Origin: Zobellia amurskyensis
Lineage (GTDB): Bacteria > Bacteroidota > Bacteroidia > Flavobacteriales > Flavobacteriaceae
Direction: 5' to 3'
Length of the DNA: 64,000 bases
NCBI RefSeq assembly: GCF_009725985.1
Contig: NZ_RCNR01000010.1
Coordinates: forward strand, 1-64,000
Shown here: piece by piece, positions 36,347 through 55,691 of the stretch
How positions within the stretch are numbered: the first letter of the stretch is position 1
Layout: the number at the start of each line of letters is the position of its first letter
The notes under the pieces: generated by a model
Database searches by the model: none
What the model was told of the DNA's origin: nothing
Seen by the model: the letters and a program-made list of their open reading frames with translations, nothing else
Made by a program: the position numbers and the translations under genes

Positions 36347-36430
36347 TATAGTATTGCCAATTAATGAGCAACTTCAAGGTTTGGCACGCTTTTTTCATCT
36401 TCCTATTTACAAATATTAAATCTAAAGATT

Positions 36431-38589: not shown

Positions 38590-38593
38590 GGTG

Positions 38594-38601
38594 CAAAAGT
38601 A
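38594..38601 (-). promoter_or_regulatory. TACTTTTG, candidate -7 box four bases before the rarA ATG
   Basis: An exact TAnnTTTG match in the minus direction, separated from the ATG by CACC. No TTG at the -33 distance. The position implies transcription starting at or next to the start codon. Confidence 0.45.
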
Positions 38602-38734
38602 TAATAAAGTTGTTAGAAGATGGTTTCTATAAAGAGGCAAACTAGCTTTTTCGAAAGTTGAATGAATGTCACTACTAAATGACTATTTAGCAGTTCGGGT
38701 GCGGTTGGCCAACTTATTGCTAATTTTAAAGTGT

Positions 38735-39478
38735 ATGTCCGATAACGCCTATTTTAAATTTACCAATAGTGTTATAATTGCCCCATTGTTGGCGGTGATT
38801 ACTATATGGACGGTGTTTTGGGTTGAATTGCGCTTCAAAATTAACCTAAATGACTATGGCATATACCCACAGCGAGTTTCGGGCTTAAAAGGCATTATTT
38901 TTAGCCCTTTTATTCATAGTTCGCTAGAACATCTCTATAATAACACTATTCCGTTAGCTATTTTGACTGCTTCGTTGTTTTATTTTTACAGGGGTATTGC
39001 GCTACGAGTACTTTTAATTGGTATTTTAATTTCCGGATTGTTTACTTGGGCCGTAGGTAGACCGTCATATCATATTGGAGCCAGCGGGGTTATATATCTT
39101 TTGGCAAGTTTCATTTTTTTTAAAGGGATATTTACCAAACATTACCGATTAGTAGCCTTGTCCCTTATTGTAGTCTTTATTTACGGTAGTATGTTATGGT
39201 ACATTTTTCCGGTTGAAGATGGGATTTCTTGGGAAGGGCATTTGGGAGGTTTCTTGGCAGGTCTTTTGCTAGCATTTATATTGAAAACGGAAGTGCCACC
39301 CATAAAGAAATACGCATGGGAAGAAGATGATTATGATGAAGAAGCAGATGCGTTTCTAAGACAGTTTGATGAAAATGGAAATTTTATAGAATTACCGCCT
39401 GAGGAAGTCATTCCTGAAGAATCAGTTCAAATTACGTACCACTATAAAGAGAATAAAGAAAATAATCCTTCAGAGTAG
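38735..39478 (+). CDS. Rhomboid family intramembrane serine protease
   Basis: A 247-residue polytopic membrane protein with six hydrophobic segments. HIGASGVIYLL near residue 110 provides the catalytic serine (GxSx) and WEGHLGGFLAGLLLA near 170 the catalytic histidine. HSSLEHLYNNTIPL near 68 is the usual loop after the first membrane segment. The C-terminal tail (DDYDEEADAFLRQFDENGNF...) is acidic and cytoplasmic. The open frame extends to 38666, but MSDNAYFKFTNSVIIAP fits the family better. A decayed copy of its 3' end lies at 46150-46396. Confidence 0.9.
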   Translation: MSDNAYFKFTNSVIIAPLLAVITIWTVFWVELRFKINLNDYGIYPQRVSGLKGIIFSPFIHSSLEHLYNNTIPLAILTASLFYFYRGIALRVLLIGILISGLFTWAVGRPSYHIGASGVIYLLASFIFFKGIFTKHYRLVALSLIVVFIYGSMLWYIFPVEDGISWEGHLGGFLAGLLLAFILKTEVPPIKKYAWEEDDYDEEADAFLRQFDENGNFIELPPEEVIPEESVQITYHYKENKENNPSE

Positions 39479-39514
39479 TGGAGGAGTACACTTTAAAATC
39501 TGGTCTAATCTTTA

Positions 39515-40261
39515 TTAAGATTTAGCTGAAGTTCTTTGTCTTACGGCTTCATATAAGAATACGGCACAAGCAACAGAAACATTCAAAGACTCAATTTCAC
39601 CCAATAAAGGCAACTTAGCAAGATGGTCCGCAGCCTTTAAGGTAGAAGGAGAGATACCTCTATCTTCAGAGCCCATAATGATAGCCGATGGTCCAGTAAA
39701 ATTCACGTCATAAACAGAGGTTTCCGTTTTCTCGGTAGCTCCAACTACGCTAATTCCACTTGCCTGTAAATAATAAACGGCATCTTTGATATGGTCAACT
39801 TTGGCGATAGGCACTTTAAAAGCCGCGCCAGCTGAAGTTTTAATAGTATCTGCAGTTACAGGAGCAGCTCCTTTTTTCTGGATAATGATGCCGTCTACTC
39901 CGGTACATTCTGCGGTTCTGATGATGGCTCCAAAATTACGTACATCGGAAAGTTGATCGAGTAACAGAAATAAAGGGGCTTTCTTGTCTGCTACGACGGA
40001 TTCAACAAGTTCTTCTAGCTCATAAAAGGTAATAGGGGAAATGTTGGCAACAACACCTTGGTGGTTGTTTTGTGTTAACCGATTTAATTTTTCAATAGGT
40101 ACATAAGAAGTGTTAATCCCATTTTTACGGATTATTCCTTCTAGTTCACGAGATAAGTCGCCTTTAAGGCCTTTTTGGACAAACACCTTGTCTATGGGTT
40201 CATTAGCGTTTATAGCTTCAATGACCGCGCGTATACCGTAAATCTGAGTTGTTTTGTCCAT
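39515..40261 (-). CDS. rlmB: 23S rRNA (guanosine-2'-O-)-methyltransferase
   Basis: A 248-residue SPOUT methyltransferase that 2'-O-methylates G2251 in the peptidyl transferase P loop. An N-terminal substrate-binding domain (YGIRAVIEAINANEPIDKVFVQKG) precedes the knotted domain: DQLSDVRNFGAIIRTAECTG (motif 1), MGSEDRGIS (motif 2) and ESLNVSVACAVFLYEAVRQR (motif 3). All motifs are intact, in contrast to the pseudogene copy at 46467-47158. TACCTTTG lies four bases before the ATG and abuts the terminator of the SusCD operon. Confidence 0.96.
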   Translation of the reverse strand: MDKTTQIYGIRAVIEAINANEPIDKVFVQKGLKGDLSRELEGIIRKNGINTSYVPIEKLNRLTQNNHQGVVANISPITFYELEELVESVVADKKAPLFLLLDQLSDVRNFGAIIRTAECTGVDGIIIQKKGAAPVTADTIKTSAGAAFKVPIAKVDHIKDAVYYLQASGISVVGATEKTETSVYDVNFTGPSAIIMGSEDRGISPSTLKAADHLAKLPLLGEIESLNVSVACAVFLYEAVRQRTSAKS

Positions 40262-40265
40262 GGCG

Positions 40266-40273
40266 CAAAGGTA
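40266..40273 (-). promoter_or_regulatory. TACCTTTG, candidate -7 box four bases before the rlmB ATG
   Basis: An exact TAnnTTTG match in the minus direction with CGCC between box and ATG. A TTG inside the adjacent terminator palindrome lies 16 bases upstream, slightly short for a -33 element. A leaderless mRNA is possible. Confidence 0.45.
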
Positions 40274-40276
40274 AAT

Positions 40277-40308
40277 AAAAAAACCACCTCAATTGAGGTG
40301 GTTTTTTT
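40277..40308 (-). terminator. 32-bp perfect palindrome, terminator of SusCD locus A
   Basis: AAAAAAACCACCTCAA joined to its complement; both strands end in T-runs, so it could stop transcription in either direction. It lies 41 bases after the last gene of the SusCD operon. Its central 24 bases recur unchanged at 47183-47206. Confidence 0.9.
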
Positions 40309-40348
40309 TATTTACTCTGTACAATTTCAAGATTGTTTTGTTCTAATT

Positions 40349-41239
40349 TTAATTTTGTCGAATTAATGTTTCAGTAAATTCTCTTGTAGCACCAGCACCT
40401 CTAAAATATCCTGTAGTAATTTTTACTACATGCTTACCATCAGGCTTGAGCTCTTGATTAGTTGTGGTTTCGTCACAAACAACCGATTCAAATTTACCGC
40501 CAGCACATGTCATTATCGGAGATCCATTTAGTAAAGTTGGTTCTCCTTCTAAATCCTTGTCTAATACGGTAATTACATTTGTAGCAGGGTCTACGGTAAA
40601 ATAAAAGTCATTGTCTTCCGGCCAAAATCCAATACCAACATGTCTGTACAAGTCAGGAGAAACAGCTTCAATAGAAACAGTTCCGGAATAATTTCCAGCC
40701 AAAGAACCAGAGTTCCAGTATTGTCCTTCCTCTACATCATAAGTACCTGCCAGCGTATTTTCATCAAGTGTTTTGAGTGTTAAATTCATAGAATTAACAT
40801 CTGAAACGGCTTCTGATGAACTAGTTATTTCGAGTATGATGTCCTTAAAGTCAAAAGGAACTAAATCTGTGGTAAGAATACGCACAGACGCATTTGCTGT
40901 GTTTTCTCCTGCTGGGATAGTCAAAGAAGTTGAAGTCAATTCAAAATCAACACCTTCCTGCGCTTCAGAATCGGGACTTGTAGCTATGGTTACTTCTACA
41001 TCTCTGTCTAAAACAACATTCCTTCCTCCAAAATATGTTATTGGTATTTCATAATCTATAGATGTGATAGCTGGGTTTTTAATAATGTTAAGCTCATCTG
41101 TTGTATTTTGAAATTGAGCTAATATAGGTCCTTTGCCAAAGTCTATTTCGTCTTGGTCGACAATTGTATCACAAGAGGTAAATACTATTGCGACTAGCAA
41201 TGTTGCGAAAATATTATATTTAGAAAATATCTTTTTCAT
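40349..41239 (-). CDS. SusCD-associated surface lipoprotein of unknown family
   Basis: A 296-residue lipoprotein (Cys23 in VFTSC) when started at MKKIFSKYN; an upstream ATG at 41260 overlaps susD. Residues about 35-160 look like an immunoglobulin/Calx-beta-type domain (GVDFELTSTSLTIPAGENTANASVRILTTDLVPFDF). The C-terminal part (about 165-296) resembles small DUF-type domains found behind SusD proteins. It is the third gene of SusCD operon A and so probably part of the surface substrate-binding complex. Unit B has no counterpart. Confidence 0.8.
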   Translation of the reverse strand: MKKIFSKYNIFATLLVAIVFTSCDTIVDQDEIDFGKGPILAQFQNTTDELNIIKNPAITSIDYEIPITYFGGRNVVLDRDVEVTIATSPDSEAQEGVDFELTSTSLTIPAGENTANASVRILTTDLVPFDFKDIILEITSSSEAVSDVNSMNLTLKTLDENTLAGTYDVEEGQYWNSGSLAGNYSGTVSIEAVSPDLYRHVGIGFWPEDNDFYFTVDPATNVITVLDKDLEGEPTLLNGSPIMTCAGGKFESVVCDETTTNQELKPDGKHVVKITTGYFRGAGATREFTETLIRQN

Positions 41240-41250
41240 CGTTTTATTTT

Positions 41251-42795
41251 TTATTTCCAAAATGGATTGTTTGTAAATGCATCGCTTTTAGTTTGCTTTG
41301 GAACATTTAAAGCGTTTCTTCCAACCTCTGAATCAGGATATAGTAGACGTACAGGTCTTACGCCATCAGATTCAGCAGGAATAGGTAGGCCAACAGGAAA
41401 TCCTGTTCTTGTTAATTCAACCCAAGACTCAATTGAAGATGTTCCATTTAGGGCTATCCATTTTTGAGTGATAATAGCTTCAATCTTATTAGTGGATGAA
41501 TCCCATGCAACATTTTTTATAGGTTGAGAATGATAGGCTTGGGCTCTTTCGAGAGTAGTGGCTGCTTCAATTGGTGGTGTTGCAGTGGCATCGGCTTCTA
41601 TGGCTGGTACATGAAGGTATTCAAAGGACTCTTCTATAGCAGCTTCATATAATGCCTTTGCGGCGGCGTCTCCACCCGGTAAATAACCTCTAACAGTAGC
41701 CTCCGCCTGTAGCAATAAACTTTCGCTGTAAAGCATTAATGGTTGGTCTTGCTCAGAACTTACTAATAATCCGGGTCCTACATGAGACAAGTCATTAGAT
41801 GTAAATCCAGAACCAGGGAGGATTGTAGTTTGCTCAGCTCCTTTGTAACCACCATTAACTGCTTCAGAATATAGTTGATTTAATCTATCGTCCCCATTTG
41901 TGGTTAAATATTCGAGGATGTAATCTGTCGCAACGGTAAAATCATTTCTGTCAAGAGTTGTGTCGTTAGGTCCTCTACCTATATAACCAAAGAAAGGGCT
42001 TTGTTTGCCTTCATTATCAGAGTAGCCGGGATTAGCACTAACATTACTGGTGATATAGCCAGCTCCATTTGCTGCTATTAAGGCTAATTGCTCTTGAATG
42101 TAAGCATCTTGACCTGTTCCGCTTAATCTTACCAATAGACGTAATTTAATTGTGTTTGCAAATTCAGCCCAGTGTGTCATATCTCCTCCATAGATTATAT
42201 CCTGGGTTCCTGGGTTTTCAGCATCTGCACTAACATTTAGGGCTAACACGGCAGCAGTGGTTAGATTATCAATTAAGGCAGTGTAAATGGCCTCCTCATT
42301 GTCATAAGCAGGAGTTGGGTTTTCTGCTCGAAGATTTGCTTCTGAAAAAGGAATATCGCCGTATAAGTCTACTAAATATTGGTATTGAAAACTTTTAAGA
42401 ATAGTGGCTATTGCTTTATAAGCTGAATAGTCTATTTCGGATTCATCTCCTCCGAAGTTTTCTACAAAGGTTAAATCTTTGAAAATCAATAAATAAGATT
42501 CTTCAAAAATGTTACTAAAAAAAGTGTTTGCTATATTATACTGAATTAACTCTTGATTGGCAGACCAATTTGACGGAGTTGACCAATTATAGGTCATGAA
42601 CTGCCCTAAGTAAGTCATTTCTTCCGCGTTTATATCTACTAATGCTTGTTGAGCAACTGGCAGAGTTAAATCTGGAGTAGATATAGATGGGTCATTTGGG
42701 TTTTCATTCACGTCCAAAAAATCATCACAACCTATAAAAACCAGCATACTAACTACTATGCTTAGATATTTTATATATTTTGTTTTATTTTTCAT
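41251..42795 (-). CDS. SusD/RagB-family nutrient-binding outer membrane lipoprotein (SusD-like type 2), locus A
   Basis: A 514-residue surface lipoprotein (lipobox VFIGC, Cys23). FLDVNENPNDPSISTPDLTLP after the signal and helical TPR-like regions (YLVDLYGDIPFSEA near 130; THWAEFANTIKLRLLVRLSG near 215) match the SusD-like type 2 family, which lids a SusC transporter and binds glycan or peptide ligands. It lies 12 bases after susC and 11 before the third gene. The ligand is unknown; no glycoside hydrolase or lyase is in this window. Confidence 0.92.
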   Translation of the reverse strand: MKNKTKYIKYLSIVVSMLVFIGCDDFLDVNENPNDPSISTPDLTLPVAQQALVDINAEEMTYLGQFMTYNWSTPSNWSANQELIQYNIANTFFSNIFEESYLLIFKDLTFVENFGGDESEIDYSAYKAIATILKSFQYQYLVDLYGDIPFSEANLRAENPTPAYDNEEAIYTALIDNLTTAAVLALNVSADAENPGTQDIIYGGDMTHWAEFANTIKLRLLVRLSGTGQDAYIQEQLALIAANGAGYITSNVSANPGYSDNEGKQSPFFGYIGRGPNDTTLDRNDFTVATDYILEYLTTNGDDRLNQLYSEAVNGGYKGAEQTTILPGSGFTSNDLSHVGPGLLVSSEQDQPLMLYSESLLLQAEATVRGYLPGGDAAAKALYEAAIEESFEYLHVPAIEADATATPPIEAATTLERAQAYHSQPIKNVAWDSSTNKIEAIITQKWIALNGTSSIESWVELTRTGFPVGLPIPAESDGVRPVRLLYPDSEVGRNALNVPKQTKSDAFTNNPFWK

Positions 42796-42807
42796 TTTAT
42801 CTTTTAT

Positions 42808-45800
42808 TTAAAATTTAACAGTAAGAGATGCACCAAAAGTTCTTGATGGAGGACCTTGTTGTTGAGTACCGATACCTACAGCATTTCCTGTGTCAAGTCC
42901 GAACTCTGGGTCAGTAATCTTATTTTCTTTAGGTAACCATGTAACCAAGTTTCTGCCAAATATACCTAGGGTTAACTCTGACAGCCCAATTTGCTCTAAA
43001 AAGTCTTGATTAAAATCATATGTTAAAGAAACTTCACGCAATCTTAAGCTTGTAGCGTCTGTAACATAGTTTTCTTTAATTTCATTGTAAGAATCCCAAA
43101 ATGCATTTCCACCTCCAGAAGTTAATCTAGTCGTGTTTTCTGTATATCCGCCATTTCCATCTGCATATGAAGAATTTGGAAAAACAAATGGTTGTCTTCC
43201 TGATTCAACACTATGTGGTGTTAAACCTGTAAACTCCAGTGCATCATATAAATTATTGTAGAATACATGACCGGTTCTATAATCTGCCGATGCATATAAT
43301 CTTAAGTTTTTATACTTTAGGGTAGTATTGCCACCAAGAATGTAATCCGGTACAGTTTTGCCTTGTATTTGTTCTTGTGTATCCTGAATAGGGTCACCAT
43401 CTGCATCAACAATAATTCTTCCTTGTGGATCTCTTTCGTAGGCCGTAGTACGTAATAAAGGGAAAGATTCTCCAACTCTTGCTACAATACGGGCTCCTGC
43501 AGCAGCGGCTGCCCCTATTTCAATTTCTTCTACACCTTCAGTGAGTTCAAGTACTTCTGATTTAAAGCCCGTATAGTTTAGGTTCAATTTCCATGAAAAA
43601 TTATCAGTACTAACAAGTGTACTTTTAAGATCTAACTCTAGGCCCTTGTTTTCAATTTCACCAACATTAATCACATTTGTAGTGGCACCTGAAGCAAGAG
43701 ATACATTTACAGGTATGATTTGATCTACAGTATTAGTTTGATAACCTGTAGCTATAAGAGATAATCGATCTCTTAATACCGTGATTTCTATACCAGCTTC
43801 AATTGATGTTGTAAATTCCGGTCCTAAAAATGGGTCTGGGGCATCACTTGACTGAGAAAGCCCAACAGTATTCGCATAAGGAAAATTAGAAGGCGTCGTA
43901 AATGTTGAATTGTTTTGGTATGCAGAAGGGTCATTACCCGTTTTAGTTACACTAAAATTTGCTTTAAGATAACTAATTCCGTTTTCACTTTTTATACCTG
44001 GAAATGCGTCAGAAGCAACAAAAGATAGGCCTGCACCAGGATAAAAGAAAGAGTTATCATCAATATTTAGTGCCGAAGACCAGTCATTTCTTGCTATTAA
44101 ATTAAGAAATAGATAATTTTTATATCCTAATGTAAAATCTGCGTAAGCTCCCATTCTTCTGTATTCAGTAGTAGCTTCAGAACCTATTAATTCCCCAGTT
44201 CTTGTTGATACATTGTAAAAGTCTGGAATAATTAGGTCGTTTCCAGAAACTGAAACAAAATCAGTTGTTTCAATTCTTGTGTTTTGTCCAACAGTTAACT
44301 TTGTTGAAAAATCATTAAAATCTTTATCGAATGTTAGAAGTATGTCACTATTAAAACGATCGGTGCCAAATAAGAAGCTTGTAGTGGTAGCCCCATAAGC
44401 ATCTAAGTTGCTATAAGCGTCAGGTACTTGAAAAGCATATGTAAAAGCACCAGTTTCTTTCTTGAATTTTGTGGTACTATTTGTATAACCCGTAACTATA
44501 GACGCTTTAAGCCAATCAGTTATTTGATAATCAATATTCGTAAGGAAATTAAACTCTTTAATATCCTGTTTATCTCTTTGCGTATCTAATATGAAGTAGG
44601 GGTTTTCATAAAATCTGAAAAAAGAAACTTCATTTCTTGTAAACTCACCTGTTTGCCAGTTAGAGTAATCAACACCATCAACAGAACCGTTTAGAGGTAT
44701 GTGTAAAGGCGTGTTAATCAAAGTCCAGTAAAAAGGTCTAGATTGTCTACCTCCAGTTGAAGAAGTTACATTTTGATGGTCTCTAAAAAAAGTGGCGTTA
44801 CCTCCAATTTTTAACTTTCCGTATTCTCTACTACCCTTTATTCTCGCATTTGTTCTGTTGTAGGTGTCTTTTGGAATGGTACCAGTTGTATTTGTTTGAT
44901 CAATCGATAATAGAAAGTCACTGGTTTCATCACCGCCACTTAGAATAACACCATGTCTATTAGTGATACCGGTATTGAAAAAGTCTTTATTTCTATTTTT
45001 TATAGGAGAATATGGTAATTGTAAAACTCTTCCATCCTCGTAAGTTTCACTTCCATCTACTAATTGACCGTCGTACTTAGGACCCCAAGCCACATTTTCT
45101 AGAGGAAACAATGTTCCATCAGGAAATCCACCAGCTCCATATTGATCTTGTAATTCAGGTAAATAAGAAACTTGATTAAATTGTGTTGATGTATTGTATT
45201 CAATACTCATTTTTCCTTTTCCTTTTTTTGTAGTAACTAAGAATACACCATTACTAGCTTCAGAACCGTAGAGAACAGATGCGTTAGATCCCTTAAGAAC
45301 AGTAGTACTTTCAATGTCATTTGGAGAAATACGGTCATAAACTCCTCTAGCCGATGGAAAACCATCAATTACGATTAAGGCTTGGTTGTTTCCTTGTAGT
45401 GATCTGCTACCCCTTAAAACAATTCTTGTGCTAGGATTAACACCACTATTAACGGTGTTAATTTGCATACCTGAAACTTTACCAACCATTGCCGTTGCAG
45501 CATTTACAGATTTTGTTTCTGTAAGTGCTTTGGTGTCTAAGCTTGCAACGGAGTAAGCAAGCTCTCTTGGCTTTCGGCTTATGTTCAAGGCAGTTACCAC
45601 AACTTCTTCTAGAGCTTCAGTGTCTTCCGTCATCTGTAGATTGATAATACTTGATGCTTCTACAGCTCGAGTCTCGTTTTTGTACCCTATGTAAGAAAAA
45701 AGTAATGATTGACCTTCACTAGCTGAAATAGTGTAGTTTCCATCAAAATCTGTCTGTGTGCCGTTGGTTGTACCGTCGACAACGATGTTAACTCCTGGTA

Positions 45801-45915
45801 GTGGAAGACCATCTTGGTCTGACACTGTACCAGTAATTGTTTTGTTTTGTGCAAATGAAATCTGCATAGTTAACGCTAAAAACAGCGTTAACAATCCTTT
45901 TTGTTTTGCTTTCAT
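42808..45915 (-). CDS. SusC/RagA-family TonB-dependent transporter, locus A
   Basis: A 1035-residue outer membrane transporter. Signal peptide (MKAKQKGLLTLFLALTMQISFAQ), CarboxypepD-reg-like domain (about 25-100, SDQDGLPLPGVNIVVDGTTNGTQTD), TonB-box-like EEVVVTAL (103-110), plug (VIDGFPSARG...LKGSNASVLYGSEASNGVFLV) and a beta barrel to the final VKF. The start at 45915 is preferred over 45945. By my count 94 of the first 110 residues equal those of the other SusC here, then similarity drops to about 30%. It imports a ligand passed by the SusD partner using TonB energy. Confidence 0.95.
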   Translation of the reverse strand: MKAKQKGLLTLFLALTMQISFAQNKTITGTVSDQDGLPLPGVNIVVDGTTNGTQTDFDGNYTISASEGQSLLFSYIGYKNETRAVEASSIINLQMTEDTEALEEVVVTALNISRKPRELAYSVASLDTKALTETKSVNAATAMVGKVSGMQINTVNSGVNPSTRIVLRGSRSLQGNNQALIVIDGFPSARGVYDRISPNDIESTTVLKGSNASVLYGSEASNGVFLVTTKKGKGKMSIEYNTSTQFNQVSYLPELQDQYGAGGFPDGTLFPLENVAWGPKYDGQLVDGSETYEDGRVLQLPYSPIKNRNKDFFNTGITNRHGVILSGGDETSDFLLSIDQTNTTGTIPKDTYNRTNARIKGSREYGKLKIGGNATFFRDHQNVTSSTGGRQSRPFYWTLINTPLHIPLNGSVDGVDYSNWQTGEFTRNEVSFFRFYENPYFILDTQRDKQDIKEFNFLTNIDYQITDWLKASIVTGYTNSTTKFKKETGAFTYAFQVPDAYSNLDAYGATTTSFLFGTDRFNSDILLTFDKDFNDFSTKLTVGQNTRIETTDFVSVSGNDLIIPDFYNVSTRTGELIGSEATTEYRRMGAYADFTLGYKNYLFLNLIARNDWSSALNIDDNSFFYPGAGLSFVASDAFPGIKSENGISYLKANFSVTKTGNDPSAYQNNSTFTTPSNFPYANTVGLSQSSDAPDPFLGPEFTTSIEAGIEITVLRDRLSLIATGYQTNTVDQIIPVNVSLASGATTNVINVGEIENKGLELDLKSTLVSTDNFSWKLNLNYTGFKSEVLELTEGVEEIEIGAAAAAGARIVARVGESFPLLRTTAYERDPQGRIIVDADGDPIQDTQEQIQGKTVPDYILGGNTTLKYKNLRLYASADYRTGHVFYNNLYDALEFTGLTPHSVESGRQPFVFPNSSYADGNGGYTENTTRLTSGGGNAFWDSYNEIKENYVTDATSLRLREVSLTYDFNQDFLEQIGLSELTLGIFGRNLVTWLPKENKITDPEFGLDTGNAVGIGTQQQGPPSRTFGASLTVKF

Positions 45916-45991
45916 TATAGAATTATTTGAATTAGCTAATGTCAAAAGTCTTAAATTTACGTTAATAATCCTATTTTTTTTAACTTTAAAT

Positions 45992-46003
45992 TATGCGTGC
46001 ATA
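45992..46003. promoter_or_regulatory. TATGC-GT-GCATA inverted repeat upstream of susC A
   Basis: A 5-bp inverted repeat with two-base spacer, beginning 77 bases upstream of the susC start. In unit B the same repeat is at the same distance with a different spacer (TT). Nearby DNA (TTAACTTTAAAT on one side, AGTTTTTT on the other) is also shared. It is a likely operator for a dimeric regulator. A GACTTTTG element nearer the gene resembles, but does not match, the -7 box. Confidence 0.5.
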
Positions 46004-46149
46004 GTTTTTTTTGTGATTTAGTGATGTTTTTTTGTAGGTTTTAAGTAAAATGACACGCTAAATTATTTTAAAGTTATATAAAAACAGTTTTTTGTGATTT
46101 GGTTAGTAGGGTTGAATTTTATTGAAGGTAGGCTTGGGAATTGCATAAA

Positions 46150-46396
46150 CAGAAAATTTTTATAACGGAATGCTAGATTTTATGGCGAATATTTCGGCCT
46201 TTATAGGAAGGCTTTCACTGGCATTTGTACTGAAGGCCGAAATGTTCCCCATTGAAAAAAATACGTTTGGGAAAAAGAAAATTATGACAATGAAACCGAT
46301 GAGTTTTTGTGGCAATTCGATGAAAAAGTTAATTTTATAGAAAGTGCACTTGAAGAAGTTATCCACGAAGGATCAGTTCGAATTATGTATTCCTAG
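46150..46396 (+). pseudogene. Decayed 3' fragment of the rhomboid gene
   Basis: Aligned by eye with 39200-39460. After the first stretch (FIGRLSLAFVLKAEMFPIEK versus FLAGLLLAFILKTEVPPIKK in the intact gene) the reading frame shifts within an A-run. Then ENYDNETDEFLWQFDEKVNF matches DDYDEEADAFLRQFDENGNF. It continues as IESALEEVIHEGSVRIMY, matching IELPPEEVIPEESVQITY, and ends at a TAG (46394-46396). The N-terminal two thirds, with the catalytic Ser and His loop, are missing. It is a non-functional remnant of the duplication. Confidence 0.85.
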
Positions 46397-46466
46397 AAAG
46401 AGAGTAGAGAAAGCAATCCTTCCGGATAGTTGAGGAGTATGTCTTAAAACCTGATCTAGCCTTTAT

Positions 46467-47158
46467 TAAAATATGTCAGAGGTTCTCTGTCTAACCCTTC
46501 TTATGAAAATACGGCACAACCATGAGAAAGATTAATTGACTCGTTTTGCATCTGGCAAGTATTATTTGAGACGGTTATCGAAATAGATGTGTCTTTATAT
46601 TTGGGCTCCATAATAATAGTCGATGGTTAATTAGAATGGATGTCACAAACGAGGTTTTCGTTTTTTGGGTAGCGGCAACGAGTCTAATTCCAATTTCCTG
46701 TTGATAATAAACGAAATCTTTGATAGAGACAACTTGGCAGAGGGTATTTTAGAGACTGCTCAGGAGAAATTTAAACAGTTTATGCAGCTATAGGAATGCC
46801 CCCTTTTTTTCTGAATAAGAATATCATTAACTCAGATATATTACTCGATTATTGTAATAGTTCTAAAAGTTCGAATATTAGAAAATTGATCAGTATTATT
46901 AGTAACGAGGCTTTCTTGTATTCTGTGACATCTTCAATAAGTTCTTTGAGCTCATAAAAAGTAATAGGGAAATAGTGATAACAAAACCTCAATGGTTACC
47001 GAGTGTCAACCGTTTTAGTTTTTACGTAGCTAACTAAACGAGGTGGATTTGATTTTTTGCTATTCAAGCCTCCTCTTTTAGATTGTTTTAATCTATGGTT
47101 GTTAGTATTTATGGTTTTTATGACAGGGCATATATAGTGGACTCGAGTTGCTTGTCAT
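46467..47158 (-). pseudogene. Decayed copy of rlmB
   Basis: The 692-base stretch aligns end to end with intact rlmB (747 bases). Shared pieces include the 3' end (AATACGGCACAA), the region of the GSED motif (GGTTTTCGTTTT..GGTAGC), AATAATAAACG-like sequence, TTCTTTGAGCTCATAAAA and the 5' end (GAGTTGCTTGTCAT against GAGTTGTTTTGTCCAT). Many small indels and stops in all frames show loss of function. Its former upstream side leads straight into the duplicated terminator. Confidence 0.85.
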
Positions 47159-47182
47159 TAGGGACAATCGTAGTGAATAAAT

Positions 47183-47206
47183 AAACCACCTCAATTGAGG
47201 TGGTTT
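47183..47206 (-). terminator. Palindromic terminator of SusCD locus B
   Basis: A 24-bp perfect palindrome (AAACCACCTCAA plus complement), identical in its centre to the one at 40277-40308 although all flanking DNA has drifted. It lies 28 bases after susD on the minus strand, and the T-rich tail favours that direction. Its preservation next to pseudogenes suggests it is still used. Confidence 0.85.
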
Positions 47207-47233
47207 TCTTCTAATATTTAATAAGATATGATG

Positions 47234-48739
47234 TTAGTCTACGTCCCAGAAAATTTTGGAAGTCATAGCATCTCCGTCAGATAAATTACCACGTGCCGCA
47301 TCCCAATTACTCTTATTAAGTAATTGTTCGTTTTGTGGGTAAGTAACTCTGCTTGGAATAGCATCTAAGCCGGGTACAAGAGTAACGAAAGTTGCATCTC
47401 CGAAAGTATCGCCAGGTACGGTTAAGGTATTTGGAAATCCAGTTCTTCTGTACAAGGTCCAACCTTCAAGTCCGTCCATATATAATCCTATATACTTTTG
47501 AGTTAAAACAGTTTCTTCTGAAGCTGCAGGTAACGCACTAATATAAGCGGTAACGTCTGTGGCATCGATACCCCAATATTCCATAGAAGCAGAAACACCA
47601 TTCTCATAACTTGCTTGATCCCATCCATTAAATTCTGATCTAATGAATTCAATTTCCGCATAAGTCAAAATTGGTTGAGAAAAGTCTGGTTTTAAAATTT
47701 CGGCATCAGGAATACCTTCGTCATTAACTGCACGAGCAACGGTGTTTCCAAATCCATAAGGAATACCAACAACTTCCGTAGCATCAAGTCTAGTATCGAA
47801 GAAAGACTCAACCCTTGGGTCGGTATCCATACCTATAAAAGGCCCAGTTCGGTTGTAAAGTAATTCAGTGAAAGATAATGAAGGGGCAAAATCACGACGA
47901 GCATTAACCGTAAAGGCATCGTGCCATGGTCCACCAACTATATCAGTAGTACCGAACATGAATAATGCATTGTCTTCATTGGAAGTGAACGCAGAAGCAT
48001 CAGATTGAGTGAATACTGAATTCGCCAAAGTTGGGTTTGCATCTAATATGTGAGACGCCAACCTTAAGCGTAGCGAATGAGCAAATTTTATCCACTTAGC
48101 GTTGCTACCACCATAGATATTATCTCCAGAAGCCATAGTTGTGCCAGAAGGGTCTAATTTGCTTGCAGCATCAGCTAGTTCTGCTAACATATCTTCATAG
48201 ATAGTTTCTGCATCTGTATAGCTTGGACTTGTAACACCATCTTTTAAGCGTAACGCTTGAAAATCTTGATTCTCCATTTGTCCGTAGCTCCAATAAGGAA
48301 CATCGCCAAATGTATCTACTAGTTTTGAAAAGGTATAAGCCATCAAAATTCTAGAAACCTGAATCTGATCATTGTTCGATCCATATTGTAACATTAAGGG
48401 TGCGTTAACGGCGTCGGTATTTAATTCAATAACCTCTTTTAAATCCGTTAATATACGATACGGCCACTCCCACATGTCATCAACCATAGAAGTACGTAAA
48501 GCATATCTACTTTCATCAGTGTAAAAGGTAGAATTCCAATACTGGCTAATTTGAAGGGTTCCTCTAGCGGCTACCCATTCATCGTTCAATTCCCAAGCCA
48601 AATCGAATTGAGCATTGCTGAAAAGTTGAGTAGATGGAGCTGACGCCGGGTTGTCCGGGTCGTTTATATAATCGGTATCACAACCGATTACAAACAGCAG
48701 AGCTGAAGCTGCTAATGTTGCTAAACTATATTTTTTCAT
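47234..48739 (-). CDS. SusD/RagB-family outer membrane lipoprotein, locus B
   Basis: A 501-residue surface lipoprotein (lipobox FVIGC, Cys20) when started at MKKYSLATL. DYINDPDNPASAPSTQLFSNAQFDLAWEL follows the signal; TPR-like helices (SKLVDTFGDVPYW near 125; AKWIKFAHSLRLRLASHI near 200) and a C-terminal QKYIGLYMDGLEGWTLYRRTGFP segment fit the SusD-like type 2 family. It is only distantly similar to the SusD of locus A, so it should bind a different ligand. It is co-transcribed with the SusC 11 bases upstream. Confidence 0.92.
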   Translation of the reverse strand: MKKYSLATLAASALLFVIGCDTDYINDPDNPASAPSTQLFSNAQFDLAWELNDEWVAARGTLQISQYWNSTFYTDESRYALRTSMVDDMWEWPYRILTDLKEVIELNTDAVNAPLMLQYGSNNDQIQVSRILMAYTFSKLVDTFGDVPYWSYGQMENQDFQALRLKDGVTSPSYTDAETIYEDMLAELADAASKLDPSGTTMASGDNIYGGSNAKWIKFAHSLRLRLASHILDANPTLANSVFTQSDASAFTSNEDNALFMFGTTDIVGGPWHDAFTVNARRDFAPSLSFTELLYNRTGPFIGMDTDPRVESFFDTRLDATEVVGIPYGFGNTVARAVNDEGIPDAEILKPDFSQPILTYAEIEFIRSEFNGWDQASYENGVSASMEYWGIDATDVTAYISALPAASEETVLTQKYIGLYMDGLEGWTLYRRTGFPNTLTVPGDTFGDATFVTLVPGLDAIPSRVTYPQNEQLLNKSNWDAARGNLSDGDAMTSKIFWDVD

Positions 48740-48750
48740 TGTCAATTTTT

Positions 48751-51700
48751 TTAGAATGATAATTTAAGGTTCATACCATAAGATCTAAGAGAAGGCTGTA
48801 AACCACCTTCTAAGCCTTGTACGTTTCCTGATCCCGTAGATACGGTTTCTGGATCTATCCCGTCGTAATCTAGACCCCATGTAAAAAGGTTTCTTCCGAA
48901 AACACTAATTCTTGCAGAATCAAATATTTTTAAGAAGTCTTTCTGGAATGTGTACCCCAAGGCAATTTCGCGCAATTTCACGAAGTCTGCATCAAAAACG
49001 TTTTGAGCATCCGGAGTACCGTTTCCACCGTAATGCATAGTACCGAAAGTTTGTCCATCAATATTGGTGGTGTTCTCAGCAGTGTCGGATACTGTGTAAT
49101 TTCCGTTGTCGTCATAAGTGATGGTTCCAGTTACACCATTAAGAACGATACCATCCTCTCTAATGTTATTTTCGACAGTAGCTTGCAACATTCCTGAGTA
49201 CATACCCCATTGGTGTGATGTAGAGAAATATGAACCACCTTGACTTGTTTCAACTAAGAAAGTTAAATCTAAGTTCTTGTATCTAAGACTGTTTCTAATA
49301 CCAGCAGTATAGTCTGGAAGAACAGAGCCTAGGGGAACTAAGTCACGAGTAGCAGCGTACATTCCACTATCGGCAATAACTTTATTGCCAGCATTGTCGT
49401 ATACGAAATCCGTTCCCATGATTACACCGTAAGGTTGACCTACAGTTGCTAATAATTGAGCTCTAAAAGGTGCATTGGTAAGATTAATTGATTCTAGCCC
49501 TTCTGAAAGCTCTACTAGCTCATTTTCATTTTTAGCATAGTTAACGTCAATTTCCCAAGAGAAATCTTCAGTTTTAATAGGCTTAAGACCTACTTGAACT
49601 TCAATACCCTTGTTCGTCATCTCGCCCGCGTTAATCCATTGCGCTCCATAACCAGTTCCATAGGAAAGGTCTACTGGGATAATTTGGTCAGTTGTTGAGT
49701 TGTTATAGTAAGTAACATCTAAGTTGATCCTATTTTTTAGGAAGCTTAACTCAGCGCCCAATTCCCAGGTTCGAGTAGTCTCATTTTTAAGATTGGCATT
49801 TAATAATGTTGAAGGCACGGTCACTCGACCTTCTCCGTTGAAAGGAGTGTCCAAGGTTAATGTGCTAATAACCGTGTAAGGATCTGCATCATTACCAACT
49901 TCAGCCCAGTTTGCACGAAGTTTACCGTAATTAAACCAGCTACTGTCAGGAACGACCTCACTAAAGACCCATGCTAAAGAGGCAGATGGGTAGAAATATG
50001 AGTTGTTGTCATTCGGTAAAGTAGAAGACCAGTCATTACGAGCTGTTAAATCAATGAATAATTGATTTGCAAAACCTAAGTTTAAACTACCAAATAAACT
50101 ATTTACTTTTTTGAAATCTGTGTAAGTGTCTTGATCTAATGGCCCCTTACCGTTGTTAATATTGAAAATGCCTGGTATAGTAAGACCACCGGTAGTTTCG
50201 TTAAAACGGTAATCTAATTGGTAATCTCTTTGGTTAGCACCTGCCAATGCTGTAATATTGAAATTCTCAGAAATATCTTTTTTATAATTAGCTACTAATT
50301 CGTAGTTATACTCTTCGAAGTCGTAGGTTCTTTCTGTGTATTTCGATTGTGCCTGAGAGCCTATTGAAGCTCTTTCCGTATTTCTGAAGTTGTACGTGTC
50401 TCCATAAGTACTTAGCTTAATGCCAAACGCATCTGTTACTTGATAATTTACACTTGCAGAACCATATATTCTACTACGTTTATCAGTAGGGTGGTTTTCA
50501 AAAGCGGTCCAATATGGGTTGTCAGAGTAATTTGGTGTAGGGTCGTCATATGAAATCCTGTTCCAAGTTCTTTGACTTCCGTCATCATTTTTATAATTAC
50601 TTAATCTGTCGTAGTCCAATTGACGTTGACCCCATTGAAAGAATTTTTGAGTAACACTATTATCATCATAACCAATAATAGGTCTGATGCCAGAAGTATT
50701 AACGTAGTTCATGGTACCAACAAAAGTAACTTTCTCAGATAATCTTTGAGTAAGATTCAAACGTAAGAAGTGTTTGTTGATTTCTGTCCCTGGAACAATA
50801 CCTGTAGTTTTTTCATTACCAACAGACATGAGGTAACTTCCTTTATCTCCTCCAGAAGAAACAGTTATATTGTTATTGGTAGATATACCTGTATTGAAAA
50901 AACTCTCAACATCATTAGCTGGAGCTACCCAAGGTCTAGTTTGTAAATAATCCCCAGGAAAACTTTCTTGGTCAAAAGCATCCCAACCAAGATATTGAAT
51001 GCTTGGGTCATATTTAGGTCCCCAGCTTTCATCAGTAGCATACTGAGGTATAAGATATTCAGTTCCATTTATATTGGCAACTTCAAATCCGTTCCGACCA
51101 CCGTCAGCATCGGAAATAATAGAGCCTCCACCATATTCTCTTTGGAGATTTGGTAAAATAGCTACGTCTGAAAAAGTTACAGATGTGTTGATGGATACGC
51201 CTAGTTTTTTACCAGATTTACCTTTTTTAGTGTTAATTAAGATAACACCATTGGAGGCACGTGAACCGTAAAGAGCTGCAGCGGCACCTTTTAAAACCGT
51301 AACACTTTCAATACTATTTGGGTCTATATCATTTATAGTACTACCAAAATCGACACCACCTGCACCTCTTTCAGTATCATCGGTGTTAAAGTTGGAGTTG
51401 TCCATTGGTATACCATCTATAACGAATAAAGGTTGGTTTTCACCAGTTACAGAGTTCGCGCCACGAATTAGTATACGTTGTGAACCGCCCAAGTTACCTG
51501 ATGGCGAGTTTACTTTGAGACCAGCAACTTTACCAGATAATGCCGAAATGGCATTATTGTTTTGAGCTGAACTTAAATCGTCCGCACCTACTTTTGGGGC
51601 AGAATAAGATAATGATTTGGCGTCTCTTTCAACACCTAAAGCGGTAACTACTACCTCATCTAAAGCCTGAGCATCCTCAGACATTTGAAGGTTGATGGTG

Positions 51701-51966
51701 TTGGAAGCTCCAACGGCACGGGTCGTATTTTTATACCCGATGTAAGAAAATACTAATGATTGACCTTCGCTAGCTGAAATAGCATAGTTACCGTCAAAAT
51801 CTGTTTGGGTACCATTTGTAGTACCTTGAACAACAATGTTAACTCCCGGTAGTGGTAGACCATCTTGGTCGGATACCGTACCGGTAATCGATTTGCTTTG
51901 CGCAAATGAAATCTGCACGATTAACGCCAAAAACAGCGTTAACAATCCTTTTTGTTTTGCTCTCAT
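48751..51966 (-). CDS. SusC/RagA-family TonB-dependent transporter, locus B
   Basis: A 1071-residue outer membrane transporter. Signal peptide MRAKQKGLLTLFLALIVQISFAQ, CarboxypepD-reg-like domain, EEVVVTAL-type TonB box (DEVVVTALG, about 103-111), plug (LFVIDGIPMDNSN...LKGAAAALYGSRASNGVILI) and barrel ending LKLSF. The start is 51966, not 51996. The first 110 residues and upstream DNA nearly equal those of locus A, but the following plug region shares only about 19 of 62 residues by my count. Promoter and N-terminal domain were thus shared or copied, and the body comes from another lineage. Confidence 0.95.
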   Translation of the reverse strand: MRAKQKGLLTLFLALIVQISFAQSKSITGTVSDQDGLPLPGVNIVVQGTTNGTQTDFDGNYAISASEGQSLVFSYIGYKNTTRAVGASNTINLQMSEDAQALDEVVVTALGVERDAKSLSYSAPKVGADDLSSAQNNNAISALSGKVAGLKVNSPSGNLGGSQRILIRGANSVTGENQPLFVIDGIPMDNSNFNTDDTERGAGGVDFGSTINDIDPNSIESVTVLKGAAAALYGSRASNGVILINTKKGKSGKKLGVSINTSVTFSDVAILPNLQREYGGGSIISDADGGRNGFEVANINGTEYLIPQYATDESWGPKYDPSIQYLGWDAFDQESFPGDYLQTRPWVAPANDVESFFNTGISTNNNITVSSGGDKGSYLMSVGNEKTTGIVPGTEINKHFLRLNLTQRLSEKVTFVGTMNYVNTSGIRPIIGYDDNSVTQKFFQWGQRQLDYDRLSNYKNDDGSQRTWNRISYDDPTPNYSDNPYWTAFENHPTDKRSRIYGSASVNYQVTDAFGIKLSTYGDTYNFRNTERASIGSQAQSKYTERTYDFEEYNYELVANYKKDISENFNITALAGANQRDYQLDYRFNETTGGLTIPGIFNINNGKGPLDQDTYTDFKKVNSLFGSLNLGFANQLFIDLTARNDWSSTLPNDNNSYFYPSASLAWVFSEVVPDSSWFNYGKLRANWAEVGNDADPYTVISTLTLDTPFNGEGRVTVPSTLLNANLKNETTRTWELGAELSFLKNRINLDVTYYNNSTTDQIIPVDLSYGTGYGAQWINAGEMTNKGIEVQVGLKPIKTEDFSWEIDVNYAKNENELVELSEGLESINLTNAPFRAQLLATVGQPYGVIMGTDFVYDNAGNKVIADSGMYAATRDLVPLGSVLPDYTAGIRNSLRYKNLDLTFLVETSQGGSYFSTSHQWGMYSGMLQATVENNIREDGIVLNGVTGTITYDDNGNYTVSDTAENTTNIDGQTFGTMHYGGNGTPDAQNVFDADFVKLREIALGYTFQKDFLKIFDSARISVFGRNLFTWGLDYDGIDPETVSTGSGNVQGLEGGLQPSLRSYGMNLKLSF

Positions 51967-52042
51967 TTTATAATTATTTGAATTAGCTAGCGCCAAAAGT
52001 CATAAATTCACGTTAAGAATGCAATTTTTCTTAACTTTAAAT

Positions 52043-52054
52043 TATGCTTGCATA
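52043..52054. promoter_or_regulatory. TATGC-TT-GCATA inverted repeat upstream of susC B
   Basis: The same arms and the same 77-base distance to the start codon as in unit A; only the two spacer bases differ. This pattern, arms kept and spacer free, is what selection on a dimer binding site leaves. TTG and GACTTTTG elements 20 bases apart lie between it and the gene, a near match to the -33/-7 promoter. Confidence 0.5.
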
Positions 52055-52160
52055 GTTTTTTCGTGTTATAAAACGAAGTTAATAGGTGTATTTGTGAGAA
52101 AATCATACCTGAAATTAGCGCTTAGTTATAAAAAACATGATTTTGAGATTTGGTTTCTGA

Positions 52161-52550
52161 AAAAGGGAGTCTGTTTTTGTTAAATTTTTTAGAATTCGAT
52201 AATTGTGTATCATCTCAAGCTTAACTTGTTAATTATAAGTTAATTTTTAAAAAAATGAAGGATTAAACTTGTTAAAATAATTAAAAATGATAGCCGGAAT
52301 TTATCTGCCTTAAGATAGTTATTGCTTTTTCTTGTTTGTAAATTTTGATTTCGTCAGGAGTTTTAAATTGGTAAGTTGTTAATTTGAGTAATTTGGTGCT
52401 TATTCTACGTATATTTATTAGTTATAATTTTGGATTTAATAGCTCTAGGGTTGTCAATGTTTTGTTACTCTAGTTTTTAATTATAATGTGTTCTTATTAG
52501 TTGGTTAGATTTGTCTTGAAATAATTTATTCTAAAATAAATGGCAAACTA
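52161..52550. other. AT-rich intergenic region before the ribosomal operon
   Basis: About 390 bases with no coding potential. A small inverted repeat TTAACTT-N9-AAGTTAA lies at 52220-52242, followed by T residues. Nothing else stands out. It separates the divergent susC B leader from the rpsL promoter. Confidence 0.5.
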
Positions 52551-52581
52551 TTTGAATTTCTGCGAAATAGTCTTACATTTG
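52551..52581 (+). promoter_or_regulatory. Promoter of the str-S10-spc operon
   Basis: TTTG (52551-52554), 19 bases, then TACATTTG (52574-52581): both elements and the spacing match the Bacteroidota consensus. The rpsL ATG lies 42 bases downstream of the box. This is the clearest promoter in the window, as expected for a highly expressed operon. It lies within an upstream extension of the rpsL frame, ruling out the longer protein. Confidence 0.75.
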
Positions 52582-52623
52582 CCGACCCTTAAACAAGGGG
52601 TTATTTATACATATATATTTAGT

Positions 52624-52998
52624 ATGCCAACAATTTCACAATTAGTACGAAAAGGAAGGTCCACGATTACTAAGAAGAGTAAATCGGCGGCTTTGGATTC
52701 GTGTCCTCAAAGAAGAGGTGTTTGTACTCGTGTTTATACGACTACACCGAAGAAACCAAATTCAGCTATGAGAAAAGTAGCAAGAGTAAGGTTGACAAAC
52801 GGTAAGGAAGTGAACGCTTACATACCCGGAGAAGGACATAACCTCCAAGAGCACTCGATAGTATTAGTAAGGGGCGGAAGGGTAAAAGATTTGCCAGGAG
52901 TTAGATATCATATCGTTAGAGGGGCTTTGGATACCGCAGGTGTTGCAGGGAGAACTCAACGTAGGTCTAAGTATGGTGCAAAACGCCCTAAGAAGTAA
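52624..52998 (+). CDS. rpsL: 30S ribosomal protein S12
   Basis: S12 lies at the decoding centre of the 30S subunit. The 124-residue protein starts [12 protein letters not shown] and has [21 protein letters not shown] and [15 protein letters not shown]. The lysines corresponding to E. coli K43 and K88 are present, so this allele should be streptomycin-sensitive. An open frame from 52540 is longer but starts upstream of the promoter. It is the first gene of the superoperon; rpsG follows after 74 bases. Confidence 0.98.
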
Positions 52999-53072
52999 AT
53001 GAACAAAGAATGTTAGATGATGGTTGAGATGTTATGTTTCAATTGAAGTTTAAAATTCTAAACTATTAAGTA

Positions 53073-53549
53073 ATGAGAAAAAGACAGGCAAAAAAAAGAC
53101 CGCTTTTACCAGATCCAAGATTTAACGATCAGTTGGTAACACGTTTTGTTAACATGATGATGTGGGACGGTAAGAAGTCAATCGCTTTTAGTGTTTTCTA
53201 TGATGCAATGGATATTGTAGAGGAAAAAAAGACAGATGACGAAAAGACTGCTTTGGAGCTTTGGAAGGATGCGCTTTCAAATGTTATGCCTCACGTAGAG
53301 GTTAGAAGTAGAAGAGTAGGTGGTGCTACATTTCAGATTCCTATGCAAATTAGACCGGATCGTAAGATTTCAACTGCGATGAAATGGTTGATTAGTTTCG
53401 CAAGAAAGCGTAATGAAAAAGGAATGGCGCAAAAATTAGCAGCAGAGGTTCTTGCTGCTTCAAAAGAAGAAGGTGCTGCTGTTAAGAAAAGAGTAGATAC
53501 GCATAAAATGGCTGAGGCTAACAAAGCTTTTTCACACTTTAGATTCTAA
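53073..53549 (+). CDS. rpsG: 30S ribosomal protein S7
   Basis: S7 starts assembly of the 30S head and contacts tRNA in the E site. The 158-residue sequence ([38 protein letters not shown]) is typical, including the beta-hairpin arm region [19 protein letters not shown] and the C-terminal [20 protein letters not shown]. It lies six bases before fusA, in the standard rpsL-rpsG-fusA order. Confidence 0.98.
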
Positions 53550-53555
53550 TCGGAA

Positions 53556-55691
53556 ATGGCAAGAGATTTAAAATATACAAGAAATATAGGTATTGCTGCT
53601 CATATTGATGCTGGTAAGACAACAACAACTGAGCGTATACTTTTTTATACAGGTGTTAGTCATAAAATTGGTGAGGTGCACGATGGTGCGGCTACTATGG
53701 ACTGGATGGAGCAGGAGCAAGAGCGTGGTATTACCATTACTTCTGCTGCAACAACTTGTACATGGAAGTTTCCTTTGGAGAATGCAAAGGAGCTTGATAA
53801 TACTAAGGATTATCACTTTAATATAATTGATACACCGGGACACGTTGATTTTACGGTTGAAGTAAACCGTTCTCTTCGTGTGTTGGATGGTTTGGTTTTC
53901 TTATTTAGTGCTGTTGACGGTGTAGAGCCTCAATCAGAAACTAACTGGAGACTTGCTGATAATTATAAGGTGCCGCGTATTGGTTTTGTTAACAAAATGG
54001 ACCGTCAGGGTTCCAACTTCTTAATGGTCTGTAAGCAGGTTAAAGAGATGTTGGGTTCTAATGCGGTGCCAATTGTTTTACCTATTGGTGATGAAGCTGA
54101 CTTTAGAGGTATTGTTGACCTTGCTAAGAACAGGGCTATAGTATGGCATGAAGAGGGTTTTGGGTCAACTTTTGATGTTGTTGATATTCCAGAGGAAATG
54201 AAAGCTGAAGTAAAGGAGTATAGAGCTGCTTTAATTGAGGCTGTTGCGGAATATGATGAGGAGTTGATGGAGAAATTCTTCGAGGATGAAGATTCTATTT
54301 CTGAAGAAGAAGTTCATGCGGCTTTAAGGGCGGCAGTTATGGACAGGGCTATCATACCTATGATATGTGGTTCTTCATTTAAGAATAAAGGTGTTCAGTT
54401 TTTGTTGGATGCTGTTTGTAGATATTTGCCTTCGCCAATGGATAAGGAAGCCATTATTGGTGTGAATCCAGATACGGGAGAAGAAGAGTCTAGAAAGCCG
54501 GATGTAAAGGAGCCTTTTGCTGCTTTGGCATTTAAGATTGCTACGGATCCTTTTGTGGGTAGATTAGCTTTCTTTAGAACTTATTCTGGTCGTTTGGATG
54601 CAGGTTCTTATATATTGAATAACCGTTCAGGTAAAAAAGAGCGTATTTCACGTATATATCAAATGCACTCTAATAAGCAAAATGCTATCGATTATATCGA
54701 AGCGGGAGACATTGGTGCTGCTGTTGGATTTAAAGATATTAAAACTGGGGATACAATGTCTGCTGAAAAGCATCCTATTGTATTGGAGAGTATGGACTTT
54801 CCTGATCCGGTAATTGGTATAGCTGTTGAGCCTAAAACAAAGGTAGACGTTGATAAGTTGGGTATGGCTTTGGCTAAATTGGCTGAAGAAGATCCTACTT
54901 TTCAGGTAAAAACAGATGAAGCATCAGGTCAGACTATTATTTCTGGTATGGGCGAGCTTCACTTAGATATTATTGTTGATAGACTAAGACGTGAGTTCAA
55001 GGTTGAGGTTAACCAAGGTGAGCCGCAAGTAGAGTATAAAGAAGCGTTGACTAAATCGGCTTCACATAGAGAGACTTATAAAAAGCAATCTGGTGGTCGA
55101 GGTAAGTTTGGTGATATCGTATTTTCAATGAGTCCTGCAGATGAGGATTTCGAAGGAGAAGGACTGCAATTTGTTGATCAAATTAAAGGTGGTCGTATTC
55201 CAAAGGAATTTATCCCATCTGTAGAAAAAGGATTTGCTGCAGCAATGCTAAACGGACCTTTGGCTGGATTTGAGATGGATAGTATGAAGGTTGTGTTAAC
55301 TGATGGTTCTTTCCACCCTGTGGATTCGGATGCGCTTTCTTTTGAATTGGCTGCTAAAATGGGTTACAAAGCTGCTGGTAAAGCTGCTGGTGCCGTAATT
55401 ATGGAGCCTATAATGAAGATTGAGGTGCTTACCCCAGAAGAAAACATGGGTGATATAGTAGGTGATTTGAACCGAAGAAGAGGTGTTATTACTAGTATGA
55501 GTGATAGGGCTGGAGCTAAGGTTATCAAAGGTGAAGTGCCATTGTCTGAGATGTTCGGTTATGTTACTTCGTTAAGAACACTTTCTTCAGGTAGGGCAAC
55601 ATCTACAATGGAATTTTCTCACTATGCAGAAACTCCATCAAATATTGCAGAACAAGTTATTAAGGCAGCTAAAGGTATTACAACCGCTTAA
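53556..55691 (+). CDS. fusA: Elongation factor G
   Basis: EF-G moves tRNA and mRNA through the ribosome using GTP. The 711-residue protein has G1 [19 protein letters not shown], the switch I/G2 region [13 protein letters not shown]3 [10 protein letters not shown]4 NKMD, and domains II-V with [20 protein letters not shown] (domain III) and [23 protein letters not shown] (domain V). The codon composition is typical of highly expressed genes here. tuf does not follow as in E. coli; rpsJ is next, after 12 bases. Confidence 0.98.

Follow-up and report, generated by a model that had tools for sequence, protein, structure and literature searches.

Loci at which specificity genes are exchanged between conserved flanks include the capsule-type loci, with constant flanks and a variable centre, and the receptor types of Pseudomonas fpvA. 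In phase-variable SusC loci, a constant 5′ end is joined to alternative bodies. Among SusCD-type pairs, the rag locus (ragAB) of Porphyromonas gingivalis exists, as summarised in the sections consulted, in four types (rag-1 to rag-4) that are horizontally transferred between strains (PMC11817032, PMC5266723), and it is probably the closest known case to the locus described here. For the N-terminal extension of SusC (NTE, Pfam PF13715), the account of the Bacteroides levan importer Bt1763, in the part consulted, calls the function unknown and the loss harmful (PMC7782687). Among the titles and abstract openings listed, where "SusC" also matches "susceptible", we found no description of a SusCD slot between rlmB and the str operon or of its exchange. 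Here, we analysed two neighbouring SusCD pairs in the window, which is the whole stretch of 64,000 nucleotides under study; they appear, from sequence comparison, to be alternatives that can fill a single slot, flanked by rlmB on one side and the str operon on the other. The arrangement is probably explained by doubling of this slot plus exchange of cassettes at a SusCD site common to the family.

Both ends of a tandem unit are repeated in the window

The preliminary description had read the gap between the two SusCD pairs, 46150-47206, as a degraded copy of 39200-40308. The copy is real: blastn of 36000-46149 against 46100-54000 paired 39250-40092 with 46200-47023 at 69.5% DNA identity (E 1.5e-92), and a second block, 40191-40308, with 47092-47210 at 72%, the latter carrying the palindromic terminator that had been noticed on both sides. 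Globally aligned, 39223-40308 and 46176-47210 are 72.6% identical over 1023 columns with 32 gaps, and the local alignment of remnant and intact block scores 727, against a maximum of 54 across 100 letter shuffles. The rhomboid 3′ end aligns through its stop, as had been stated, with 39476-39478 paired to a TAG at 46427-46429. The positions of all features are listed in Table 1.

The many indels reported for the second rlmB were also found. Twenty-five of the 32 gaps fall in the rlmB part of the remnant, 23 of these are not multiples of three, and stops occur at 10 of 214 aligned codons. Substitutions relative to the intact gene are distributed 68/53/70 over the three codon positions, which matches the expectation for neutral decay, and at columns invariant across the nine genomes of the genus the remnant deviates in 160 of 590 ungapped cases. 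Because the gaps break the frame, stops are present and substitutions are spread over the codon positions, the rlmB remnant is an unconstrained pseudogene. One intact rlmB was found in the window's own genome (G000; each species is represented by one genome), where the remaining matches are paralogues of 25-30% identity or the remnant itself.

The opposite end of the unit, on which the preliminary description was silent, is repeated too: 45587-46104 matches 51638-52155 at 78.5% (blastn, E 3.7e-119), covering the leader of susC and the opening ~110 codons of the gene. Both unit ends are therefore in direct repeat around a single junction, the arrangement of a tandem segmental duplication. At 46105-46175, the susC leader is joined to the interior of the rhomboid gene, and homology was undetected in this interval. 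The repeated ends support a tandem event whose junction would lie near 46105-46175, close to the 46110-46150 proposed earlier.

Table 1. Features of the two SusCD units and their flanks in the window
Feature	Position	Strand	Basis
Rhomboid protease gene, intact	38666..39478	+	Pfam Rhomboid 3e-16
rlmB, 23S rRNA methyltransferase gene, sole intact copy found in genome	39515..40261	-	Pfam SpoU_methylase + SpoU_sub_bind; name rlmB from preliminary description
Palindromic terminator-like sequence, copy A	40277..40316	.	matches 47172-47210 in both orientations
Lipoprotein-like accessory gene, cassette 1, absent from cassette 2	40349..41260	-	Calx-beta, DUF5006 below cut-off only
susD1	41251..42795	-	Pfam SusD-like_2 1.7e-62
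susC1 putatively exchanged body, plug + barrel	42808..45586	-	96% aa to G001; 30-33% to susC2 body by alignment used
susC1 constant 5′ module: signal peptide, NTE/CarbopepD_reg_2, TonB box; ATG 45915	45587..45915	-	TonB box + signal peptide by eye
susC1 leader, common to susC2; motif 45990-46004	45916..46104	-	alignment
Junction of tandem unit	46105..46175	.	no homology detected
Rhomboid 3′ remnant	46176..46429	+	blastn + alignment
rlmB pseudogene	46466..47159	-	blastn + alignment
Palindromic terminator-like sequence, copy B	47172..47210	.	blastn
susD2	47234..48745	-	Pfam SusD-like_2 6e-76
susC2 putatively exchanged body	48751..51637	-	Pfam + alignment
susC2 constant 5′ module; ATG 51966	51638..51966	-	Pfam + alignment
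susC2 leader; motif 52041-52055	51967..52155	-	alignment
str operon genes rpsL, rpsG, fusA = right edge of slot	52540..55691	+	Pfam

The genes inside the two units are not duplicate copies

The interior of copy A consists of the lipoprotein-like gene, susD1 and susC1, and that of copy B of susD2 and susC2. Pfam placed CarbopepD_reg_2 and Plug in SusC1 and SusC2 alike, matched a barrel model to SusC2 only, and found SusD-like_2 in both partners; a SusC with NTE, plug and barrel beside a SusD lipoprotein is the composition of a SusCD importer pair. Both pairs look functional, judging from their intact frames and a dN/dS of ~0.03-0.05 between G000 and a second genome of the genus, G001.

The constant 5′ modules of susC1 and susC2 are 85% identical in amino acids and 80% in nucleotides (dN 0.076), whereas the bodies share 33% of their amino acids (30% in another alignment; dN 0.77) and the SusDs 28% (dN 0.87), so that divergence at amino-acid sites downstream of the module (dN 0.77-0.87) is about ten times that of the module. 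The interior genes thus do not behave as mutual duplicates. Relatives of each body were found elsewhere, in searches that kept matches at E <= 1e-200 and scored candidates in part. The C1-type SusC (that of susC1) has a 63% match beside rlmB in locus L078, whose stretch leaves rpsL outside, and matches of 61% in G020, on a contig other than that of the slot, and, within the slot, of 59% in G003 and 41% in G012. C2 (that of susC2) is 66% identical in amino acids to the SusC of Joostella locus L072, the sole pair between rpsL and rlmB there; a strong C2 match occurred only in G000 and G001 among 40 genomes (E <= 1e-200, part of the candidates scored). A sister relationship of C1 and C2 is rejected by the body alignment (AU p 5e-68).

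These data bear on the proposal of the preliminary description that one tandem duplication of about 6-7 kb included the SusCD genes, after which both transporter copies diverged and one rlmB decayed. Its structural part stands: a tandem unit bounded by the 3′ end of rhomboid and the leader of susC is present, its two ends repeat in the same order, and one rlmB copy has decayed. The SusCD pairs as its two copies do not fit. With SusC bodies at 33% and SusDs at 28% amino-acid identity and the dead rlmB at ~70% DNA identity, the pairs are not products of the same duplication, since functional genes of one duplication should not be less alike than equally old neutral sequence; moreover, the accessory gene is in copy A only. 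Because the bodies are closer to those of other genera (C1 61-63%, C2 66%) than to each other (33%) and their sisterhood is rejected, one pair must have been exchanged. We therefore hold a duplication that carried both pairs to be very improbable. Duplication followed by divergence of both pairs was itself tried and ruled out, on the dN contrast (0.77-0.87 vs 0.076) and the AU result.

A SusCD slot between rlmB and the str operon in the family

Of 80 rlmB loci on public genome contigs, 36 show both ends of the interval, and in 35 of these an intact SusC separates rlmB from rpsL. The only locus of the 36 that lacks a SusC, L032, has rpsL and rlmB 115 bases apart and may be an empty slot. In 23 of the 28 family genomes from outside the genus, rlmB and rpsG share a contig and lie within 20 kb of each other; the five uncounted genomes gave no rpsG hit (G010), had the genes on different contigs (G013, G022 and G023) or had them ~484 kb apart (G030). 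In 22 of the 23, SusC genes lie between rlmB and rpsG, singly in 18, doubly in three and triply in one. Twenty-three genomes from other families of the order were also searched; both genes were present in 22, none had them within 20 kb on one contig, and in five they were ~20-27 kb apart.

All nine genomes of the genus have a SusCD pair in the slot; in two (G003 and G005) the stretch examined ends before rpsG, which is ~0.6 kb further on. The inspection of relatives for one or two units that the preliminary description had suggested gave one pair in four of the nine and two in five. Alternative alleles thus occur at one conserved chromosomal site, as at ragAB. The cassettes of L126 (in G002) and L127 (in G004) have three extra genes between SusD and rlmB, and that of L133 (in G007) has two, of like size; the extra genes of L126 encode a hydrolase-like protein, a DUF3179 protein and one that combines a PKD domain with a type IX secretion signal, which hints at a different substrate.

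A constant 5′ end with alternative bodies is also the layout of phase-variable SusC loci, and a shufflon driven by a site-specific recombinase, or a related phase-variable system, could be imagined. However, the slot SusCs outside the genus (22 loci) all lie on the rlmB strand, and a Pfam scan of 10 window genes and 8 accessory genes revealed no recombinase; we regard such a system here as scarcely credible.

The leader and 5′ module are constant across slot SusCs

In all 14 SusCs at the locus in the genus, the leader is 74-96% identical over 100 bp and the module 65-99% in amino acids, and the body ranges over 27-99%. Of the many SusC-like matches elsewhere in the window's own genome, the 28 compared have modules at most 59% identical to that of C2 (median 45% over 29 including C1), and the leader at full length had no match among the 40 of 87 candidates scored. 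The leader contains a palindromic motif, ATTATGCNTGCATAG, that occurs exactly three times in the genome: once in each susC leader of the window (Table 1) and at G000:C38:1022-1036 (L218). It is 89 bases before both SusC starts in the window and 90 before the SusC-like gene on contig C38; in five loci of other genera it precedes SusC by 87-88 bases, and close forms are present in all 14 aligned leaders of the genus. The motif is possibly a promoter or a regulator site, placed at a fixed spacing. Since a C1-type body lies outside the slot in G020 and the motif occurs on C38, neither the cassettes nor the motif are confined to the slot.

Across 44 SusCs nearest rpsL, module identity tracks rlmB identity (rho 0.60), whereas body identity hardly does (rho 0.21), its median staying at 30-32% in each bin below 90% rlmB identity. 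Family-wide mean amino-acid identity is 66.5% for the module and 34.3% for the body. Seven tandem loci of other genera were compared; in six, the modules of the paired SusCs are 67-78% alike and their bodies 26-40%, with the module border set in most at a default of 115 residues. The three SusCs of G027 (L217, G027:C4:11500-31300) depart from this pattern of shared modules: two of them have bodies 67% alike and modules 49% alike, opposite to what is usual.

Synonymous divergence separates module and body within single genes

The sharpest contrast was seen between the right-hand pair of G005 and the pair of G008. Synonymous divergence is 0.11 in the SusC body and 0.13 in SusD, compared with 1.09 in the module, 0.93 in rlmB and 1.18 in rarA. 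At fourfold sites (counts rebuilt from rounded percentages), the body is identical at 400 of 435 positions, against 24 of 44 in the module (p 1e-9) and 59 of 105 in rlmB (p 1e-16). Identity in sliding windows mostly stays at 96-100% across SusD and the body, dipping in a few places to 87-93%. It is 75-78% at the module, and the drop is located at the module/plug border. Inside the window itself, the border between susC1 and susC2 is gradual under a forced global alignment; the sharp step comes from G005 and G008.

Between G000 and G001, dS is 0.59 for the susC1 body and 0.31 for susD1, against 1.28 for rlmB and 1.75 for the susC2 body. The C2 body is thus as old as the backbone, and the C2 module (dS 0.28) is younger than its body. 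The contrast between body and module of susC1 is modest (p 0.002). These dS contrasts, in G005/G008 and in G000/G001, indicate that module and body have separate histories within single genes.

The trees agree in part. Of three larger body clades tested, two are rejected by the module data (AU p 0.00065 and 0.01); the third, {G000_C1, G001_C1, G003_Cl}, is not rejected (p 0.073), and the module tree keeps G008_C with G005_Cr (98/98) and G000_C1 with G001_C1 (96/97). Full independence of module and body tree shapes, which had been expected, was absent from these trees: the module has diverged further than the body and is not randomly reshuffled.

Could the module simply be under stronger purifying selection, while the slot pairs turned over by gain and loss of paralogues without exchange? 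The family-wide conservation of the module and the two body pairs retained in its tree would fit. However, selection on the protein cannot lower body dS ten times below module dS in one gene, as in G005/G008, and the slot SusCs have in common a noncoding leader whose full length was unmatched among the candidates scored elsewhere in the genome. This alternative is, in our judgement, improbable. Taken together, the dS steps of G005/G008 and G000/G001 make cassette exchange between species well supported as a reading of these sequences; as for the mechanism, we infer homologous recombination. With one genome for each species, no exchange was seen within a species.

Origin of the remnant and search for further scars

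The remnant is closest to the rlmB of its own genome (67.4%; next 65.3%). Its placement in trees is poor because its branch is long (1.2-1.6 changes per site): AU tests of sisterhood gave p 0.022 for G000, 0.058 for G001 and 0.495 for G005. Seven alignment columns set G000 apart from the other genomes; there the remnant agrees with G000 once, with the others five times and with neither once.

No remnant scoring above shuffles was found in the gaps between pairs in G001, G003 and G005. Extra rlmB or rhomboid fragments were detected in two of 112 loci, many of whose scanned stretches span the slot in part: the window's own, and that of G004, which has ~90 bp of rhomboid only. The scan covered 80 family and nine genus loci with protein and DNA, and 23 further family loci with protein only, the window's proteins serving as queries. 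In G004 (L127, G004:C2:555200-575100), a second SusCD pair stands between rhomboid and rlmB, and ~90 bp of the rhomboid 3′ end is repeated beside an intact rlmB; the DNA matches of this locus in the scan reflect the repeated susC end, a SusCD pair lying inside its rlmB-rhomboid block. The two alleles of the window also occur in G001, in unchanged order, with no rlmB or rhomboid remnant detected between them, so that the scar does not explain every tandem. Either the scar was deleted in G001, or the G001 tandem formed separately.

Two orders of events could have produced the window: we infer either a doubling that preceded allele exchange, or the joining of two alleles in one unequal crossover. 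In the latter variant, two chromosomes, or a chromosome and taken-up DNA, with different slot alleles would have undergone an unequal, largely illegitimate crossover, with no prior duplication of one allele. The junction at 46105-46175, where leader and rhomboid interior meet without detected homology, fits this one-step route, as does the similar joint in G004, with SusCD beside rhomboid and the short rhomboid repeat. On the other side, the proximity of the remnant to its own rlmB mildly favours an own-lineage copy, yet the AU value of 0.022 disfavours sisterhood with G000. A single crossover of this kind is a serious contender, to which we attach somewhat less than an even chance.

Discussion

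Slot doubling plus cassette exchange remains the reading we prefer, and it may be pictured as follows. Across the family, the chromosomal stretch that separates rlmB from the str operon would serve as a slot for SusCD outer-membrane importers. In the genus, susC would keep its 5′ part, with leader, signal peptide, NTE and TonB box, at the slot, and the SusC plug-barrel with its SusD partner would be replaced as a cassette by recombination between species, anchored in the constant module at one side and in rlmB or the cassette end at the other. In the G000 lineage, a unit that starts with the 3′ end of rhomboid, spans rlmB and SusCD and finishes with the leader of susC would have become tandem; one SusCD interior was, or became, a different allele, giving a cell with both importers, and the redundant rlmB and rhomboid 3′ end would then have decayed.

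A broader view is that the slot is dedicated to SusCD in the Flavobacteriaceae, with the fixed leader, NTE and TonB box serving both expression and recombination as an anchor, cassettes of plug-barrel and SusD swapped in frame across species, perhaps under phage or nutrient pressure, and doubling as a means to keep two specificities. We offer this tentatively, at somewhat less than an even chance. The arrangement suggests a route to change the imported substrate without altering how the importer is expressed or energised. It also cautions that, for tandem SusCD pairs with shared ends, a paralogue reading should not be the default.

In its direct-orientation flanks and decayed housekeeping copy, the locus resembles a tandem segmental duplication with a pseudogenised copy, but the interiors of its two units are not duplicates. 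Exchange between conserved flanks is shared with capsule-type loci and fpvA; the genes are different, and the slot has one anchor inside coding sequence. The module carries the same Pfam domain as the Bt1763 NTE, followed by a TonB-box-like stretch, whereas a role as recombination anchor is absent from the NTE account in the part of PMC7782687 consulted. As that account describes the function as unknown, the retention of the NTE while everything downstream in SusC is exchanged makes the slot a natural experiment on this domain. Like ragAB, as far as the sections consulted describe it, the slot holds a SusCD-type pair with alternative alleles. Unlike ragAB as described there, the slot is common to a family, its variation is seen between species, and it can keep two alleles side by side, marked by a scar; a further possible difference is that its break falls within susC, where the NTE meets the plug.
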